Assembly (NCBI GenBank): GCA_001784585.1
Contig: MFRN01000023.1
Span: 1 to 32,358 of the forward strand
Direction: 5' to 3'
Length of the DNA: 32,358 nt
Origin: Candidatus Melainabacteria bacterium RIFCSPLOWO2_02_FULL_35_15
Lineage (GTDB): Bacteria > Cyanobacteriota > Vampirovibrionia > 2-02-FULL-35-15
Part shown: positions 6,328 to 21,371 of the stretch, piece by piece
Position numbering within the stretch: the first letter of the stretch is position 1
Layout: each line of letters begins with the position of its first letter
Notes under the pieces: model-generated
What the model saw: only the letters and a program-made list of their open reading frames with translations
Databases searched by the model: none
What the model was told of the DNA's origin: nothing
Position numbers and translations under genes: made by a program

Positions 6328-6714
6328 TTATCGCTTTTGTAGTGACATCTGGGCTTTTAAATCAGCAACCTCAGCCCGCAAAGTAGCTATTTCAGCTCTA
6401 ATATCGTTTAACTCCATGGAGTCAAGCAATGAGTTATTTGTTAGTTCAGTAAGTTTGTCTTTTATGAAACCTTTTATTTGTAATTCATTTATTTGTGCTC
6501 TGTGAGTTATTTCGTTGATTAGCTGGAAAAGTTCTTCTTTTGCTTTTTCTTTTAATTTGGATTGAATAGTTTCATCCAGGGGTTTGTTTTGTACTTTGTC
6601 TCTGAAATTATTTACCTGAATTACCAGATCACATGCTTTTGATTCCAGCTTTTCTTTAATAACATCAACTGCTGCTTTTGCTGTAAGAATAACTTTTGCC
6701 AAGTCTTTTAACAT
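6328..6714 (-). CDS. Phasin-like coiled-coil protein
   Basis: The protein is small and almost entirely helical, with heptad-rich, charged sequence and a C-terminal coiled coil (LNDIRAEIATLRAEVADLKAQM). It resembles phasin/PhaF-like proteins commonly found beside UbiB-type kinases, but has no diagnostic motif. I place the start at ATG 6714 (MLKDLAKV), giving 128 residues. The in-frame TTG at 6738 would read through a hairpin (6728-6746), so it is unlikely. No Shine-Dalgarno is visible. The ATG instead follows a conserved hairpin plus TATTATAAAAAAC, the same arrangement as at the TetR gene. It is first in the operon with the ABC1 kinase, ssb and the dehydrogenase. Confidence 0.7.
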   Translation of the reverse strand: MLKDLAKVILTAKAAVDVIKEKLESKACDLVIQVNNFRDKVQNKPLDETIQSKLKEKAKEELFQLINEITHRAQINELQIKGFIKDKLTELTNNSLLDSMELNDIRAEIATLRAEVADLKAQMSLQKR

Positions 6715-6727
6715 GTTTTTTATAATA

Positions 6728-6746
6728 GCGCAAAACAAGTTTGCGC
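6728..6746 (-). repeat. CTTGT-loop hairpin A1 in front of the phasin-like gene
   Basis: Read on the minus strand this is GCGCAAA, loop CTTGT, then TTTGCGC (8 bp with the outer A-T pair), followed by ATTATAAAAAAC and the ATG. The loop is identical in the hairpins at 6758-6778, 11810-11830 and 21308-21328, while the stems differ. Confidence 0.8.
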
Positions 6747-6757
6747 TTCCTTTTATT

Positions 6758-6778
6758 AAGTTTAGACAAGCTAAACTT
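6758..6778 (-). repeat. CTTGT-loop hairpin A2, tandem to A1
   Basis: On the minus strand: AAGTTTAG, loop CTTGT, CTAAACTT, then AATAAAAGG. Its stem is unrelated to A1, but the loop and the A-rich 3' flank match. Confidence 0.75.
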
Positions 6779-6806: not shown

Positions 6807-6834
6807 GGATTCACCGAATAAATCGGATGAATCC
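6807..6834 (-). repeat. GGATTCA/TGAATCC hairpin B1
   Basis: GGATTCA pairs with TGAATCC around CCGAATAAATCGGA, with an inner CCGA/TCGG stem. A near-identical copy lies at 11753-11780 on the other strand. In both places it precedes a CTTGT-loop hairpin and a start codon. Confidence 0.8.
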
Positions 6835-6849
6835 TTTATTCCCAAGAAA

Positions 6850-6879
6850 GCTTGCCGAATGAATCAGACAAAGCCTTTA
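6850..6879 (-). repeat. Degenerate B-type hairpin B2
   Basis: The central CCGAATGAATCAGA matches the loop region of B1 (CCGAATAAATCGGA), but the flanking arms are AAGCTTG and CAAAGCCTTT, unrelated to GGATTCA and imperfectly paired. An additional AAGCGA/TCGCTT hairpin follows at 6888-6909. Confidence 0.5.
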
Positions 6880-6929: not shown

Positions 6930-7844
6930 ATGACAAAAGAGTTAAGACAAAGAGTAATGACAATGAAAAACAAAAATTTAATCTGGGTTTATCCGCCAAA
7001 TAATTGGATTTCAAATTTTAATAAGACATTTATTTACGGGTGGTGTAATCCAAAAGCGAAATTGTTTGTTTCCGTAGAGATGTTACGCGCAACGTCTCTA
7101 CGGCGGGTAAAAATCTTCCCAAATGGAAATTTTGCACAGACGGTAAAATTGCCAAATAAAAAAAATATTGTTAAATTAATTCAAATTGTAAATAAAAAGA
7201 AAAAAATATTATCCAGGCTTGTGATCTGCCATTTGTATCCCAAGTTACAAACAGCGAATCACAAACGACAAACAACACGTAGGGGCGTTGCATGCAACGC
7301 CCCTACCATTATTATTGATCCTGGTCACGGTGGAAAAGAACACGGGACCCATTCACCAAAAGGCATTCCTGAAAAACATTTCAATTTGCAGATTGCAAAA
7401 ATGTTGTACAAAAAATTATGCCGTAGGGGCGTTTCACGAAACGCCCAAAAGATCAAAGTTTACCTGACACGATCAATCGATAAATTTGTCTCATTAAAAC
7501 AGAGGGTAAATTTTGCAAAAAAGAAAAAATGTAACATTTTTATTTCAATTCACCACAATGCTCTGCCTGATAATGAAAATCCTCTGAAACACAAAGGTAT
7601 AAGCATTTATTACACACATGATTCCATAAAGCCACTTGTCAAGTCACTGTTAGAAAGTATTTCCAAAGAAACAAAACTGAAAAAGTATGGAATGTTTAAA
7701 AGAGATTTTGCTGTAACAAAACCTGATTTTTACCGTGGAATTTTAATAGAATGTGGGTTTTTAATACATCCGGAAGAAGGAGAATATATTACAAAAAGGA
7801 AAGTTCAGGAAAAAATCGTAAAGGGAATTGTAAAAGGGATTTAA
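6930..7844 (+). CDS. N-acetylmuramoyl-L-alanine amidase (Amidase_3) with in-frame repeat insertions
   Basis: This zinc hydrolase cleaves the amide bond between N-acetylmuramic acid and the stem peptide of peptidoglycan. The catalytic domain begins at IIIDPGHGGKEHG (zinc His at about 133). It continues with PEKHFNLQIAKML (zinc Glu about 147), SIHHNA (about 207) and ILIECGFL (catalytic Glu about 274). The N-terminal VYPPNNW module resembles the leading domain of cyanobacterial amidases. No signal peptide is visible, which is unusual for this family. Three palindromic elements (7072-7103, 7279-7306, 7423-7446) and a heptamer array (7245-7279) lie inside the frame without breaking it; they encode Arg-rich inserts such as RRGVACNAPT and RRGVSRNA. 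The start is uncertain: a TATAAT at 6926-6931 overlaps the first ATG, so ATG 6957 or 6963 is also possible. Confidence 0.88.
   Translation: MTKELRQRVMTMKNKNLIWVYPPNNWISNFNKTFIYGWCNPKAKLFVSVEMLRATSLRRVKIFPNGNFAQTVKLPNKKNIVKLIQIVNKKKKILSRLVICHLYPKLQTANHKRQTTRRGVACNAPTIIIDPGHGGKEHGTHSPKGIPEKHFNLQIAKMLYKKLCRRGVSRNAQKIKVYLTRSIDKFVSLKQRVNFAKKKKCNIFISIHHNALPDNENPLKHKGISIYYTHDSIKPLVKSLLESISKETKLKKYGMFKRDFAVTKPDFYRGILIECGFLIHPEEGEYITKRKVQEKIVKGIVKGI
7072..7103 (+). repeat. GTAGAGA-type palindrome inside the amidase gene
   Basis: CCGTAGAGA pairs with TCTCTACGG; the stem continues through a T-G pair and GTT/AAC to a 6-nt loop, ACGCGC. It is inserted in frame, encoding about SVEMLRATSLRR between the N-terminal module strands. 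Confidence 0.85.
7245..7279 (+). repeat. Heptanucleotide tandem repeat inside the amidase gene
   Basis: Five 7-mers: TTACAAA, CAGCGAA, TCACAAA, CGACAAA, CAACACG. They encode LQTANHKRQTT, in the linker before the catalytic domain, and abut the 7279-7306 palindrome directly. Confidence 0.65.
7279..7306 (+). repeat. Perfect 28-bp GTAGGGGCG palindrome inside the amidase gene
   Basis: GTAGGGGCGTTGCA is followed immediately by its exact reverse complement (14 + 14 nt). Translated in frame as RRGVACNAPT, just before the first catalytic motif. Confidence 0.9.
7423..7446 (+). repeat. Third, right-truncated GTAGGGGCG palindrome inside the amidase gene
   Basis: GGGCGTTTC and GAAACGCCC pair around AC. 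The left end keeps GTAG but the right CTAC is missing. It encodes RRGVSRNA between a helix and the IKVYLTR strand of the catalytic domain. Confidence 0.8.
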
Positions 7845-11672: not shown

Positions 11673-11752
11673 TACAATTTTTATAAATACTTATATTGTG
11701 AGGCTAAAAAGGTTAATATTGTAGAGAAATTTCCTACGCTTTTTTAATTATA

Positions 11753-11780
11753 GGATTCATCAGATTTGTTCGGTGAATCC
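11753..11780 (+). repeat. GGATTCA/TGAATCC hairpin B in the tetR leader
   Basis: This second copy of hairpin B1 (6807-6834, opposite strand) differs by only two bases over about 32 nt, including the flanking GATC. It is 61 nt upstream of the TetR start codon. Confidence 0.8.
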
Positions 11781-11809
11781 GATCCGGTGAAAGAGATTGA
11801 CCGACGGAA

Positions 11810-11830
11810 GCCACCAACTTGTTTGGTGGC
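11810..11830 (+). repeat. CTTGT-loop hairpin A in the tetR leader
   Basis: GCCACCAA, loop CTTGT, TTGGTGGC: a perfect 8-bp stem. ATTATAAAAA and then the ATG follow immediately. The loop and 3' flank match 6728-6746, but the stem is unrelated. Confidence 0.85.
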
Positions 11831-11840
11831 ATTATAAAAA

Positions 11841-12464
11841 ATGCAAGAAACAAATTTACCCCAACGGCCGAAATCCGCAAAAGCCCAGAGAACAAGGCAA
11901 AAAATTTTAGAAGCTGCAAGAGCGGTCTTTGCTGAATATGGTTTTGCAAAAGCTACGGCTGAAGAAATATCTACAAAAGCAGGAGTTGGCTATGGCACTT
12001 TTTATCTTTATTTTGCAGATAAAAGACAGGCATTGCATACCATTCTGGCTGAAGTCGATGACAAGCTTTATCAGCTTGGACAGTCAGAAGGTGTTGAAAA
12101 ACCATGTCTTGGACTTGGAGCACTGGCACCGATTAAAGCTACTATCGGCGGATTTTTTGACAGCTTTAAAGCATATGCAGATGTTTTAAAAATCTGCCAT
12201 GAGCTTTCAGCGACTGATCCGGATTTTAAAAATCAGCATGACAAAGTAAGAGCACGTCTTGTAGACAGAATTAAAGAACATATTTTAAAAGGAATAGAAT
12301 TCGGGAATGCCAGAAATTTAGATCCTGAAATTACCTCGATGGCTATAGCCGGCATGGTAGAAACTATTGCAGTAGAGTGGTTTTTTAATAACAGAGAATG
12401 GAACAGAGAAAAAGTAATCAATACTGTAGCAAAGCTTTATTATGGAGCAGTGGTGAAGAGTTAA
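11841..12464 (+). CDS. TetR/AcrR-family transcriptional regulator
   Basis: This 207-residue regulator has an N-terminal helix-turn-helix. RTRQKILEAARAVFAEYGFAK starts it, and ISTKAGVGYGTFYLYFADKRQAL (about 44-66) is the recognition region typical of TetR. The C-terminal part is a variable ligand-binding and dimerisation domain; the ligand is unknown. It stands divergent to the MsbA-like exporter and convergent with fabI (1 nt between stops). Control of the exporter, or of fatty acid or lipid genes, is therefore plausible but unproven. There is no Shine-Dalgarno: the ATG sits directly behind the CTTGT hairpin and ATTATAAAAA. Confidence 0.93.
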   Translation: MQETNLPQRPKSAKAQRTRQKILEAARAVFAEYGFAKATAEEISTKAGVGYGTFYLYFADKRQALHTILAEVDDKLYQLGQSEGVEKPCLGLGALAPIKATIGGFFDSFKAYADVLKICHELSATDPDFKNQHDKVRARLVDRIKEHILKGIEFGNARNLDPEITSMAIAGMVETIAVEWFFNNREWNREKVINTVAKLYYGAVVKS

Positions 12465-15228: not shown

Positions 15229-16446
15229 ATGCCGACAACCCTGGAAACATCACATACATATAAAAACTACTGGCCGCCGAAAGGCAGCAAAATTGCTGTG
15301 TGTATGAGTGGGGGTGTGGACAGCAGCACCAGTGCATTAATTTTAAAAGAAAAAGGATATGAAACCATTGGTTTAACAGGATGGCTGATTAAAGGCTCAG
15401 GGCGCTGTTGTGATAATGGAATGATAAATGCTCTAAAAGTCTGTGAACAAATAGGGGTTAATCATATCTCAAAAGATTTAAGAGTATTTTTTAAACAAGA
15501 AATTGTCGATCCGTTTATTAATTCATATCAAGCGGGCTCTACGCCTATTCCCTGTATTGCCTGCAATAACACTATTAAATGGGGGTTACTTATGCAGTAT
15601 GCATTTGATGAATTAAATTGTACACATATTGCTACAGGACATTATGCAAAATTAACTGTAGAGACTTGCTACAACAAGCCTCTTTATAAAATTGTCCGCC
15701 CGAAAGATTTAAAAAAAGATCAGACATTTATGCTCTGGGGACTAAACCAGGAAGTACTTTCCAGGACTGTGTTTCCGCTTGGAGATCTAATAAAAGAAGA
15801 AGTAAGAGAAATTGCAAAAGAAAGAAATCTTGTAGTAGCTGATAAAGAAGAAAGTCAGGATATTTGTTTTATATCAGACAAAGAAGGCACTCAGGGCTTC
15901 TTAGGAAAATACCTGGAATCAAAAGAAGGTTATATTATTGAAAATAAAACAGGAAATATTCTTGGCATTCATCAAGGCACACATAACTATACGATTGGGC
16001 AGAGAAAAGGCATTGGTATTGCATACAGTGAACCTTTATACGTAATTGATCTGGATGTGGAAAATAATATTATTTATGCTGGCACAAAGGATGAGCTGGA
16101 AGGATGTGAACTAATTGCAAAAAATGTGAATTGGATTGTACCTTCCCACGTCATTGCGAGGAGCAAAGCGACGAAGCCACGCCAAAGGCGGGCGAAGCAA
16201 TCTCCTAATGTGTCACAGAATGAGATTGCTTTGTCGGGCTCTGCCCTCCTCGCAATGACACCGAAACAAATCAGAGCAAAAATCCGCTATAATTCCAAAA
16301 CCTATCCAGCAATGGTTTCTATGCTTGATAATAACAAAGTAAAAGTAATCTTCCATGAACCTCAGTTAGCGGTTACTCCCGGGCAAGCATGTGTATTTTA
16401 TGATGAAACCGATCAGATTTTATTAGGTGGGGGATGGATTATTTAA
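15229..16446 (+). CDS. mnmA: tRNA-specific 2-thiouridylase MnmA with an in-frame repeat insertion
   Basis: MnmA thiolates U34 of tRNAs for Lys, Glu and Gln. The PP-loop MSGGVDSS is at about 26-33, the first catalytic Cys in STPIPCIACN, the tRNA-binding KDQTFML and the second Cys in SQDICFI. The GRCC plus CEQIG segment resembles cyanobacterial MnmA. The protein is 405 residues, about 38 longer than expected. The excess (about residues 307-345, KATKPRQRRAKQ and on) is encoded by a palindromic element at 16150-16259 that lies in a loop before the C-terminal beta-barrel. Removing it restores normal length and the junction to IRAKIRY. TACAAT ends 7 nt before the ATG, suggesting a leaderless message. 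Confidence 0.94.
   Translation: MPTTLETSHTYKNYWPPKGSKIAVCMSGGVDSSTSALILKEKGYETIGLTGWLIKGSGRCCDNGMINALKVCEQIGVNHISKDLRVFFKQEIVDPFINSYQAGSTPIPCIACNNTIKWGLLMQYAFDELNCTHIATGHYAKLTVETCYNKPLYKIVRPKDLKKDQTFMLWGLNQEVLSRTVFPLGDLIKEEVREIAKERNLVVADKEESQDICFISDKEGTQGFLGKYLESKEGYIIENKTGNILGIHQGTHNYTIGQRKGIGIAYSEPLYVIDLDVENNIIYAGTKDELEGCELIAKNVNWIVPSHVIARSKATKPRQRRAKQSPNVSQNEIALSGSALLAMTPKQIRAKIRYNSKTYPAMVSMLDNNKVKVIFHEPQLAVTPGQACVFYDETDQILLGGGWII
16150..16259 (+). repeat. 110-bp GTCATTGCGAGG palindromic element inside mnmA
   Basis: The terminal arms GTCATTGCGAGGAG (16150-16163) and CTCCTCGCAATGAC (16246-16259) are exact complements, as are the inner AAGCAATCTC (16195-16204) and GAGATTGCTT (16222-16231). 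The whole element is open in the mnmA frame. A half copy lies at 20788-20815. Confidence 0.88.
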
Positions 16447-20742: not shown

Positions 20743-21277
20743 TCTCTTGGTTTTATTTTCTTTCTTGATCTTAGATTATAACAATTTGTCATTGCAAGGA
20801 GCGAATGCGACAAGGGAATTTTATACAAATAACTGTTCAATAGAAAGCAAACAATATGTGGTAACCAAAATATTTGATGGGGACACTATTCTATTGGGAA
20901 ATGGTGGGAAAATCCGCCTTCTGGGCATTGATGCTTTTGAACATGATCAGAATATTTATGGCATAAGAGGGAAGGACTTTTTATCAATGCTTCTTTTAAG
21001 TAAAAATGTTTGTATTGAAACTGATGTACAAAAAAATGATGTTTATGGGAGAATATTAGGATATGTGTTTGTGCATAGATCATTTATAAACGAAGAACTG
21101 CTTAAAAATGGCTATGCTATCTTATATGATTTCCCGCCAAACATAAAATATATTTCCAGACTTAAAAAAGCACAAATTTACGCCAGAGAAAACATGCTTG
21201 GAATCTGGAAAAGGCAAAATTTGATTTTAGAAACGCCGGCTCAATGGAGACATAAGCATCCGTTTAAGAAGAAGTAA
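20702..21277 (+). CDS. Secreted thermonuclease-like (SNase) nuclease
   Basis: This Staphylococcal-nuclease-fold protein has 191 residues. A basic N-terminus plus hydrophobic stretch (MLKIKRIVKKVFFILLVLFSFL) is a signal peptide. The nuclease domain shows DGDTILLGNGGKIRLLGIDAFE, with metal-binding and catalytic Asp, Arg and Glu. Position 41-equivalent reads A in DAFE instead of the usual DTPE. VYGRILGYVF carries the second Arg, and NEELLKNGYAILYDFPPN follows. It should cut DNA or RNA outside the cytoplasm with Ca2+. Residues about 30-38 (LQGANATR) come from a half copy of the GTCATTGC element at 20788-20815. The start overlaps the divergent peroxidase gene by 41 nt. Confidence 0.87.
   Translation: MLKIKRIVKKVFFILLVLFSFLILDYNNLSLQGANATREFYTNNCSIESKQYVVTKIFDGDTILLGNGGKIRLLGIDAFEHDQNIYGIRGKDFLSMLLLSKNVCIETDVQKNDVYGRILGYVFVHRSFINEELLKNGYAILYDFPPNIKYISRLKKAQIYARENMLGIWKRQNLILETPAQWRHKHPFKKK
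20788..20815 (+). repeat. Half copy of the GTCATTGC element in the nuclease gene
   Basis: GTCATTGCAAGGAGCGAATG and the following CGACAAGG match the left arm of the mnmA element (16150-16176) with three substitutions and one inserted base. It is in frame just after the signal peptide. Confidence 0.75.
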
Positions 21278-21307
21278 CTAAATCCTTCTGCTTTTCCTTT
21301 TTTTTAT

Positions 21308-21328
21308 AGCGCAAGACAAGCTTGCGCT
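21308..21328 (-). repeat. CTTGT-loop hairpin A, third locus
   Basis: On the minus strand: AGCGCAAG, loop CTTGT, CTTGCGCT, then ATAAAAAAAAGG. Against 6728-6746 it shows one compensatory change, a C-G pair in place of A-T next to the loop. No gene follows on that strand. Confidence 0.8.
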
Positions 21329-21371
21329 TCTTTCAGCCTATACGCAGCGACCTAAGTAATTTTACAAGTGA

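Follow-up and report, generated by a model that had tools for sequence, protein, structure and literature searches.

Small palindromes are common in bacteria. Among the described systems closest to the element reported here is that of the REP and REPIN sequences together with the RAYT transposase (TnpA_REP), with which the element shares the character of a short interspersed palindrome, present in high copy number, located near genes, and probably handled as single-stranded hairpins. The GTAG and CGTC tags define the REP super-families, and the CGTC repeats are palindromes without a dedicated transposase (PMC3733652). Our element differs in carrying neither tag—in about 95 copies, TATA or TAAA mostly precede hairpin B, and GGA mostly hairpin A—as well as in its length of about 110 bp, its two unlike hairpins, its A-rich end, and the duplications found at some copies; furthermore, most genomes of the family have no gene of the matching Y1 type, and none of those genes is flanked by the hairpins of the element. 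The CGTC-tagged REPs and the Rickettsia palindromic elements (RPEs) likewise have no dedicated transposase and can lie against or inside coding sequence, but their sequence and tag are different, and in our element it is the A-rich end that points toward the gene edge. Other palindromic inserts, located inside open reading frames and translated in frame, resemble the RPEs and are present in mnmA (16160-16275; HVIARSKATK...EIALSGSALLAMT) and in an amidase-like frame (7073-7097, 7278-7302, and 7422-7446).

In the cyanobacteria, the sister lineage, the small dispersed repeats are of about 20 bp and often stand in tandem. Those repeats are possibly mobile (PMC2884548). The element resembles them in being small, possibly mobile, and without a transposase of its own, but departs from their short and often tandem form in being a 110-bp unit of two hairpins. 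The eukaryotic SINEs, for their part, are retroposons mobilized by LINEs, with an A-rich 3' end and target duplications of variable length. The element has in common with the SINEs the A-rich 3' end, an apparent 5' truncation, and, at a minority of its copies, duplications of variable length; in contrast, any RNA intermediate of the element is hypothetical, and a reverse transcriptase (PF00078) was found in none of the 11 genomes of the family. As to a MITE of a DDE transposase, the terminal inverted repeats were absent in the alignments that we read, the left end being approximately CGNANTTNCA..TATAGG and the right end TATAAAAA.

Like REP, REPIN, and RPE, the element is a short hairpin-forming repeat that is dispersed in the genome and codes for no protein. 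We assign a probability of roughly 0.7 to the reading that it is a lineage-restricted, non-autonomous mobile palindrome of about 110 bp that becomes the leader of the gene it adjoins. High copy number, restriction to one lineage, covariation, empty sites, edge placement, duplications, and the scarcity of shared sites all support mobility.

Anatomy, distribution, and covariation

The window—that is, the whole stretch of 32,358 nucleotides analyzed, from contig MFRN01000023.1 of Candidatus Melainabacteria bacterium RIFCSPLOWO2_02_FULL_35_15—contains two copies that lead into a start codon. The copies belong to one interspersed family of about 110 bp, consisting of hairpin B, a linker, hairpin A, and an A-rich end; in the 5' to 3' direction the parts are a left end (approximately CGNANTTNCA..TATA) that is weakly conserved among the copies, a hairpin B bulged by a single base, then GATC and some 20-25 nt of linker, hairpin A with the loop CTTGT, and the A-rich right end (A)TATAAAAA.

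The copy preceding the TetR-family gene (11841-12464, + strand) extends over 11753-11841 of the same strand. Its probable left end, weakly conserved and ending in ATTATA before GG, was placed at 11727-11752 by a comparison of left flanks, and it is about here that the sequence diverges from the empty site of the relative G001; the boundary is uncertain. Then follow hairpin B (11753-11780), whose outer stem is GGATTCA/TGAATCC and which is supported by folding; the GATC conserved in the copy alignments (11781-11784); the linker (11785-11809), ending in GACGGAA; hairpin A (11810-11830), with an 8-bp stem GCCACCAA/TTGGTGGC and the loop CTTGT; and the A-rich right end ATTATAAAAA (11831-11840), which abuts the ATG at 11841 and is missing at the empty orthologous sites. 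On the minus strand, the copy at 6834-6712 leads into the phasin-like gene (6328-6714) and comprises hairpin B (6807-6834, supported by folding and by a model match), the linker, two successive hairpins A at 6758-6778 (AAGTTTAG CTTGT CTAAACTT) and 6727-6747 (AGCGCAAA CTTGT TTTGCGCT), and the right end ATTATAAAAAAC (6715-6726) before the ATG at 6714-6712. The preliminary description had proposed the same composite order leading into each ATG, which order was borne out at both loci; in the phasin leader, that account had nevertheless missed the second hairpin A together with a degenerate second hairpin B farther upstream (6850-6875, minus strand, with a weak match to the hairpin-B model at 6852-6871). 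The folding energies of both window copies were well below those of shuffled sequences, as RNA and as DNA (z from -4.2 to -6.2).

What had been taken for a third copy, at 21308-21328 on the minus strand, is indeed a hairpin A, followed by TATAAAAAAAA and located in reverse orientation 3' of a + strand gene that ends at 21277; its 5' body, however, is not that of the composite. The same alternative body of about 90 nt upstream of hairpin A is shared by the window (21298-21345, minus strand) and the locus L035; and because hairpin A is joined to another body at these two places, 3' ends and bodies seem to have been exchanged between element families. Moreover, a second repeat family of about 165 nt is represented in this genome by some 12 near-identical copies (L205-L208, L212, and others; at G000 C43:84940, C34:9237, C4:92863, C10:28794, C40:12478, and elsewhere), which family has hairpin B with the loop TTTAT in common and another 3' part, ending in GGCGGTAGGCAAAAAC.

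For the genome-wide search we built covariance models from the copies—R1 for hairpin A, R2 for the composite, and R3 for hairpin B—and the counts obtained from such model searches are lower bounds. The genome under study, of 1.94 Mb and 98.95% completeness, yielded at least 37 copies with R2, and the ten other genomes of the family gave from 14 to 103 matches each at E values up to 0.1, so that all 11 family genomes were positive; among 106 further genomes of the class there was no match. The scan thus disposes of the alternative, considered at the outset, that no other copies existed. The named relatives within the family are groundwater Candidatus Melainabacteria, and in the genomes scanned the element is restricted to this one Melainabacteria family. 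A search of Rfam returned no match for the element, only tRNAs and one sub-threshold chance match, and viral contigs searched with the hairpin-B pattern gave none.

Both stems covary through strict Watson-Crick changes. In the first ten copies hairpin A, of 21 nt with an 8-bp stem, was paired in 80 of 80 pair cells, with two-sided changes at seven of the eight pairs; in 25 composite copies 97.9% of the cells paired, two-sided changes occurred in 16 of 19 pairs, and G-U appeared in three cells only. In a set of 95 copies drawn from the 11 genomes, 741 of the 760 pairs of hairpin A were Watson-Crick, two were G-T, and one was A-C; there were 24 different stem sequences, and the loop was CTTGT in all copies but one. 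These pair counts indicate that structure and loops are kept while the stem sequence is free; and the earlier statement that hairpin A retains only its loop and 3' flank must be abandoned, since the hairpin is always one of 21 nt with an 8-bp stem whose sequence varies and whose pairing is maintained. The same freedom of the stem sequence makes a site for a common protein, in the usual sense, unlikely. The hairpins would probably be read by an enzyme as folded single strands during mobilization, because pairing and loops are kept in spite of the free stem sequence and G-U pairs hardly occur. We also tried the type of mismatch as a criterion to separate selection on RNA from selection on DNA, and discarded it: eight G-T against two A-C are too few to decide.

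Empty sites and marks of insertion

The composite is absent at the TetR orthologues of six relatives (G001, G002, G003, G005, G006, and L100) and at the phasin orthologues of six (G001-G006). In two named relatives of greater distance (L101 and L102), different hairpin-B-like sequences take its place at the TetR gene. The phasin genes of the relatives have a -10 box at a distance of 6-7 nt upstream of the ATG, e.g., TGAGATAATTTACTTATG, which arrangement is of the leaderless type; the phasin gene of this genome has the same GATAATTTAC, followed by the inserted leader. Since -10-like hexamers likewise stand a few nucleotides 5' of the start codon in many genes of the window (fabI, mnmA, sua5, lpxI, an epimerase, and others), leaderless-type promoters and transcripts appear to be common in the family. 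The comparison with the orthologues, whose promoters are of the leaderless type, shows that both window copies separate the ATG from the -10 region, so that the element now constitutes the 5' leader of each gene. The proposal that a mobile palindrome supplies a translation start survives in part: mobility is supported by the empty sites, the tens of copies, the lineage restriction, and the excess near starts, and the sequence just upstream of the start does come from the element; the ATG itself, however, belongs to the gene.

Filled and empty sites could also be compared in other genomes at ruvA, ssb, and dus, and again at tRNA-Trp. Among 50 genes with a copy, only two gene clusters are shared between genomes, each by two of them. 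Against the mobile reading, occupancy in more than one genome at narH, rplN, dus, and ruvA would also fit a retained function. At narH the upstream reading frame appears to continue in frame through the element in two genera (L023 and L180), so that the protein encoded before narH may there owe an extended C terminus to the element.

When the left flank of each of 95 copies was compared with its own right flank, about 7 matched far above mismatched pairs, revealing target duplications of 14 to about 55 bp in a few copies; in most of the 95, both window copies included, the comparison detected none, which counts against the mobile reading. The flank scores exceeded nearly all mismatched pairs at L178, L172, L157 (with AAAAAGGAGAAACATATA on either side), L219, L176, and the L047 tandem. 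The latter locus (L047:2670-2996; G000 C13:40669-40995) holds three tandem copies, repeated every 117 nt or so, immediately 5' of a tRNA-Gly gene. The right-hand duplicate mostly begins 3-6 nt past hairpin A; and at L219, L172, and L178 the duplication repeats the 3' end of a gene, and its left copy leaves that gene whole. At some copies, then, target sequence is duplicated so that one intact gene edge survives, as seen at a few loci.

In the few copies that show them, the duplications vary in length and begin near the A-run, which invites comparison with retroposition: in a bacterial counterpart of the SINEs, a small structured RNA ending in A would be copied into DNA by some activity at nicked targets, at the edges of genes and of mature tRNAs. 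The A-rich 3' end of variable length is as expected, and so is the predominance of copies keeping only the 3' part (L017, L029, L038, L041, L042, and L043) over the one clear 3'-truncated copy, with the 5' part alone (L209), although such truncated copies are few and were counted by eye. The junctions found at the ends of mature tRNAs point in the same direction, including that in G007, where another hairpin-B-type element ends in TATAAAAA before tRNA-Trp, at exactly the nucleotide where the copy of this genome ends. We still hold this mechanism to be improbable: the stems contain almost no G-U, and the reverse transcriptase missing from the family is present in 11 of 29 other genomes. In favor of mobility as such, the tRNA-Trp gene of G008 (L293, C38, from position 1501) is followed by another type of A-tailed insert, 125 nt long, and then by a partial second copy of the tRNA that constitutes a 50-bp duplication with one mismatch.

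Placement at gene edges and mobilization

Placement was analyzed in 93 copies, 27 from this genome and 66 from relatives, the latter being the best-scoring matches and not a random sample. In that set, 49 copies (about 53%) had their end 0-25 nt upstream of an ATG that opens a reading frame, as against 8.6% of the intergenic positions and 13.4% of the intergenic A-runs; and within the narrower interval of 7-12 nt the observed proportion was 41% (in a 96-copy sample with the tandem members still included) compared to 2.1% of the intergenic positions and 4.5% of the A-runs. Copies scattered without relation to start codons, which outcome would have spoken against the preliminary description, were consequently not what we found. 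A further 17 of the 93 lay at tRNA edges, eight at 5' ends and nine, reversed, at 3' ends; in this genome the element abuts 5 of the 40 tRNA genes, with about 0.06 expected from the intergenic null. One reversed copy stands at the 3' end of the RNase P RNA, and four face terminator-like hairpins, while the reversed copies at stop codons (5 of 93 versus 8% expected) showed no excess. The mobile palindrome would spread within the genomes of this one family and settle with its A-rich end against gene edges, possibly through recognition of the hairpins or of the A-rich end: forward copies adjoin start codons or the 5' ends of tRNAs, and reversed copies adjoin terminators or the 3' ends of tRNAs and, in one case, of the RNase P RNA. 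In the purN-like gene of G003 (L152) the element ends inside the expected start region, and the nearby in-frame start is the TTG within the CTTGT loop.

Selection alone might produce such a pattern if the element inserted at any A-rich site and the survivors in a compact genome were those that left the gene edge intact, and the duplications preserving one intact gene end at L219, L172, and L178 agree with that idea; but the frequencies of intergenic A-runs given above fall far short of those observed, the tRNA edges are far over-represented, and several empty sites lack the A-run, all of which renders this explanation quite improbable. Insertion at transcription start sites, an appealing idea where genes are leaderless, was likewise rejected, because the tRNA-Trp copy adjoins the 5' end of the mature tRNA, which is probably some tens of nucleotides past the -10, and one ssb copy sits within an operon.

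The position 7-12 nt upstream of many start codons, the covarying hairpins, and the two genes with a copy in two genomes might also befit a cis-regulatory RNA, that is, a leader or attenuator common to a regulon. The target genes, however, are unrelated—rplN, rplJ, rpsJ, fabF, purB, narH, TetR, and tRNAs, the first six having been read by eye from their N-termini—and the element is missing at both window genes in relatives, is reversed behind tRNAs and terminators, has stems nearly without G-U, and finds no counterpart in Rfam; therefore, regulation, which had been suggested as a reason for the element, is very improbable as such, and any effect on translation would be secondary. The GGA before hairpin A would come to lie at the Shine-Dalgarno distance were the hairpin looped out, a ribosome site that is geometrically possible; yet selection of the GGA in that role was not detected, with no significant enrichment in the start-adjacent copies (35 of 49 versus 27 of 46 others, p = 0.2). 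As a main reading we also set aside a promoter borne by the element, with its -10 in TATAAA: this hexamer does not end in T, and the copies in reverse orientation look toward the 3' ends of tRNAs.

There remains the enzyme. The ends of IS200/IS605 elements generally form hairpins in which the loop is conserved and a base is bulged, and the two hairpins of the element, with their conserved loops, bulged base, and strictly Watson-Crick pairing, would suit a REP-like mobilization in which a Y1 transposase (HUH, IS200/RAYT) recognizes the hairpins in single-stranded form. Y1_Tnp is clearly present in this genome and in G008, and weakly in two others, adding up to 4 of the 11 family genomes; but G001, with no Y1, has 99 R2 matches, the hairpin models have no match beside the Y1 genes of the family, neither GTAG nor CGTC adjoins the stems, and some copies show target duplications, a mark that IS200/IS605 insertion is not known to leave. 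We accordingly regard this route as unlikely. It speaks against the mobile reading in general that, with PF00078 absent and Y1_Tnp so distributed, no mobilizing enzyme could be tied to the element.

About 70% of the sampled copies, with pairing kept and the stem sequence free, adjoin a start codon or a tRNA end at a distance of a few nucleotides, which precision asks for a targeting mechanism; we know of no palindrome family that offers such gene-edge targeting, nor of any mobile palindrome that would explain this placement. The 11 genomes, with their many copies and clear empty sites, make both the choice of target and the mobilization directly testable. The element also shows a route by which leaderless-type genes, including the essential rplN, rplJ, rpsJ, and fabF, can gain structured leaders.
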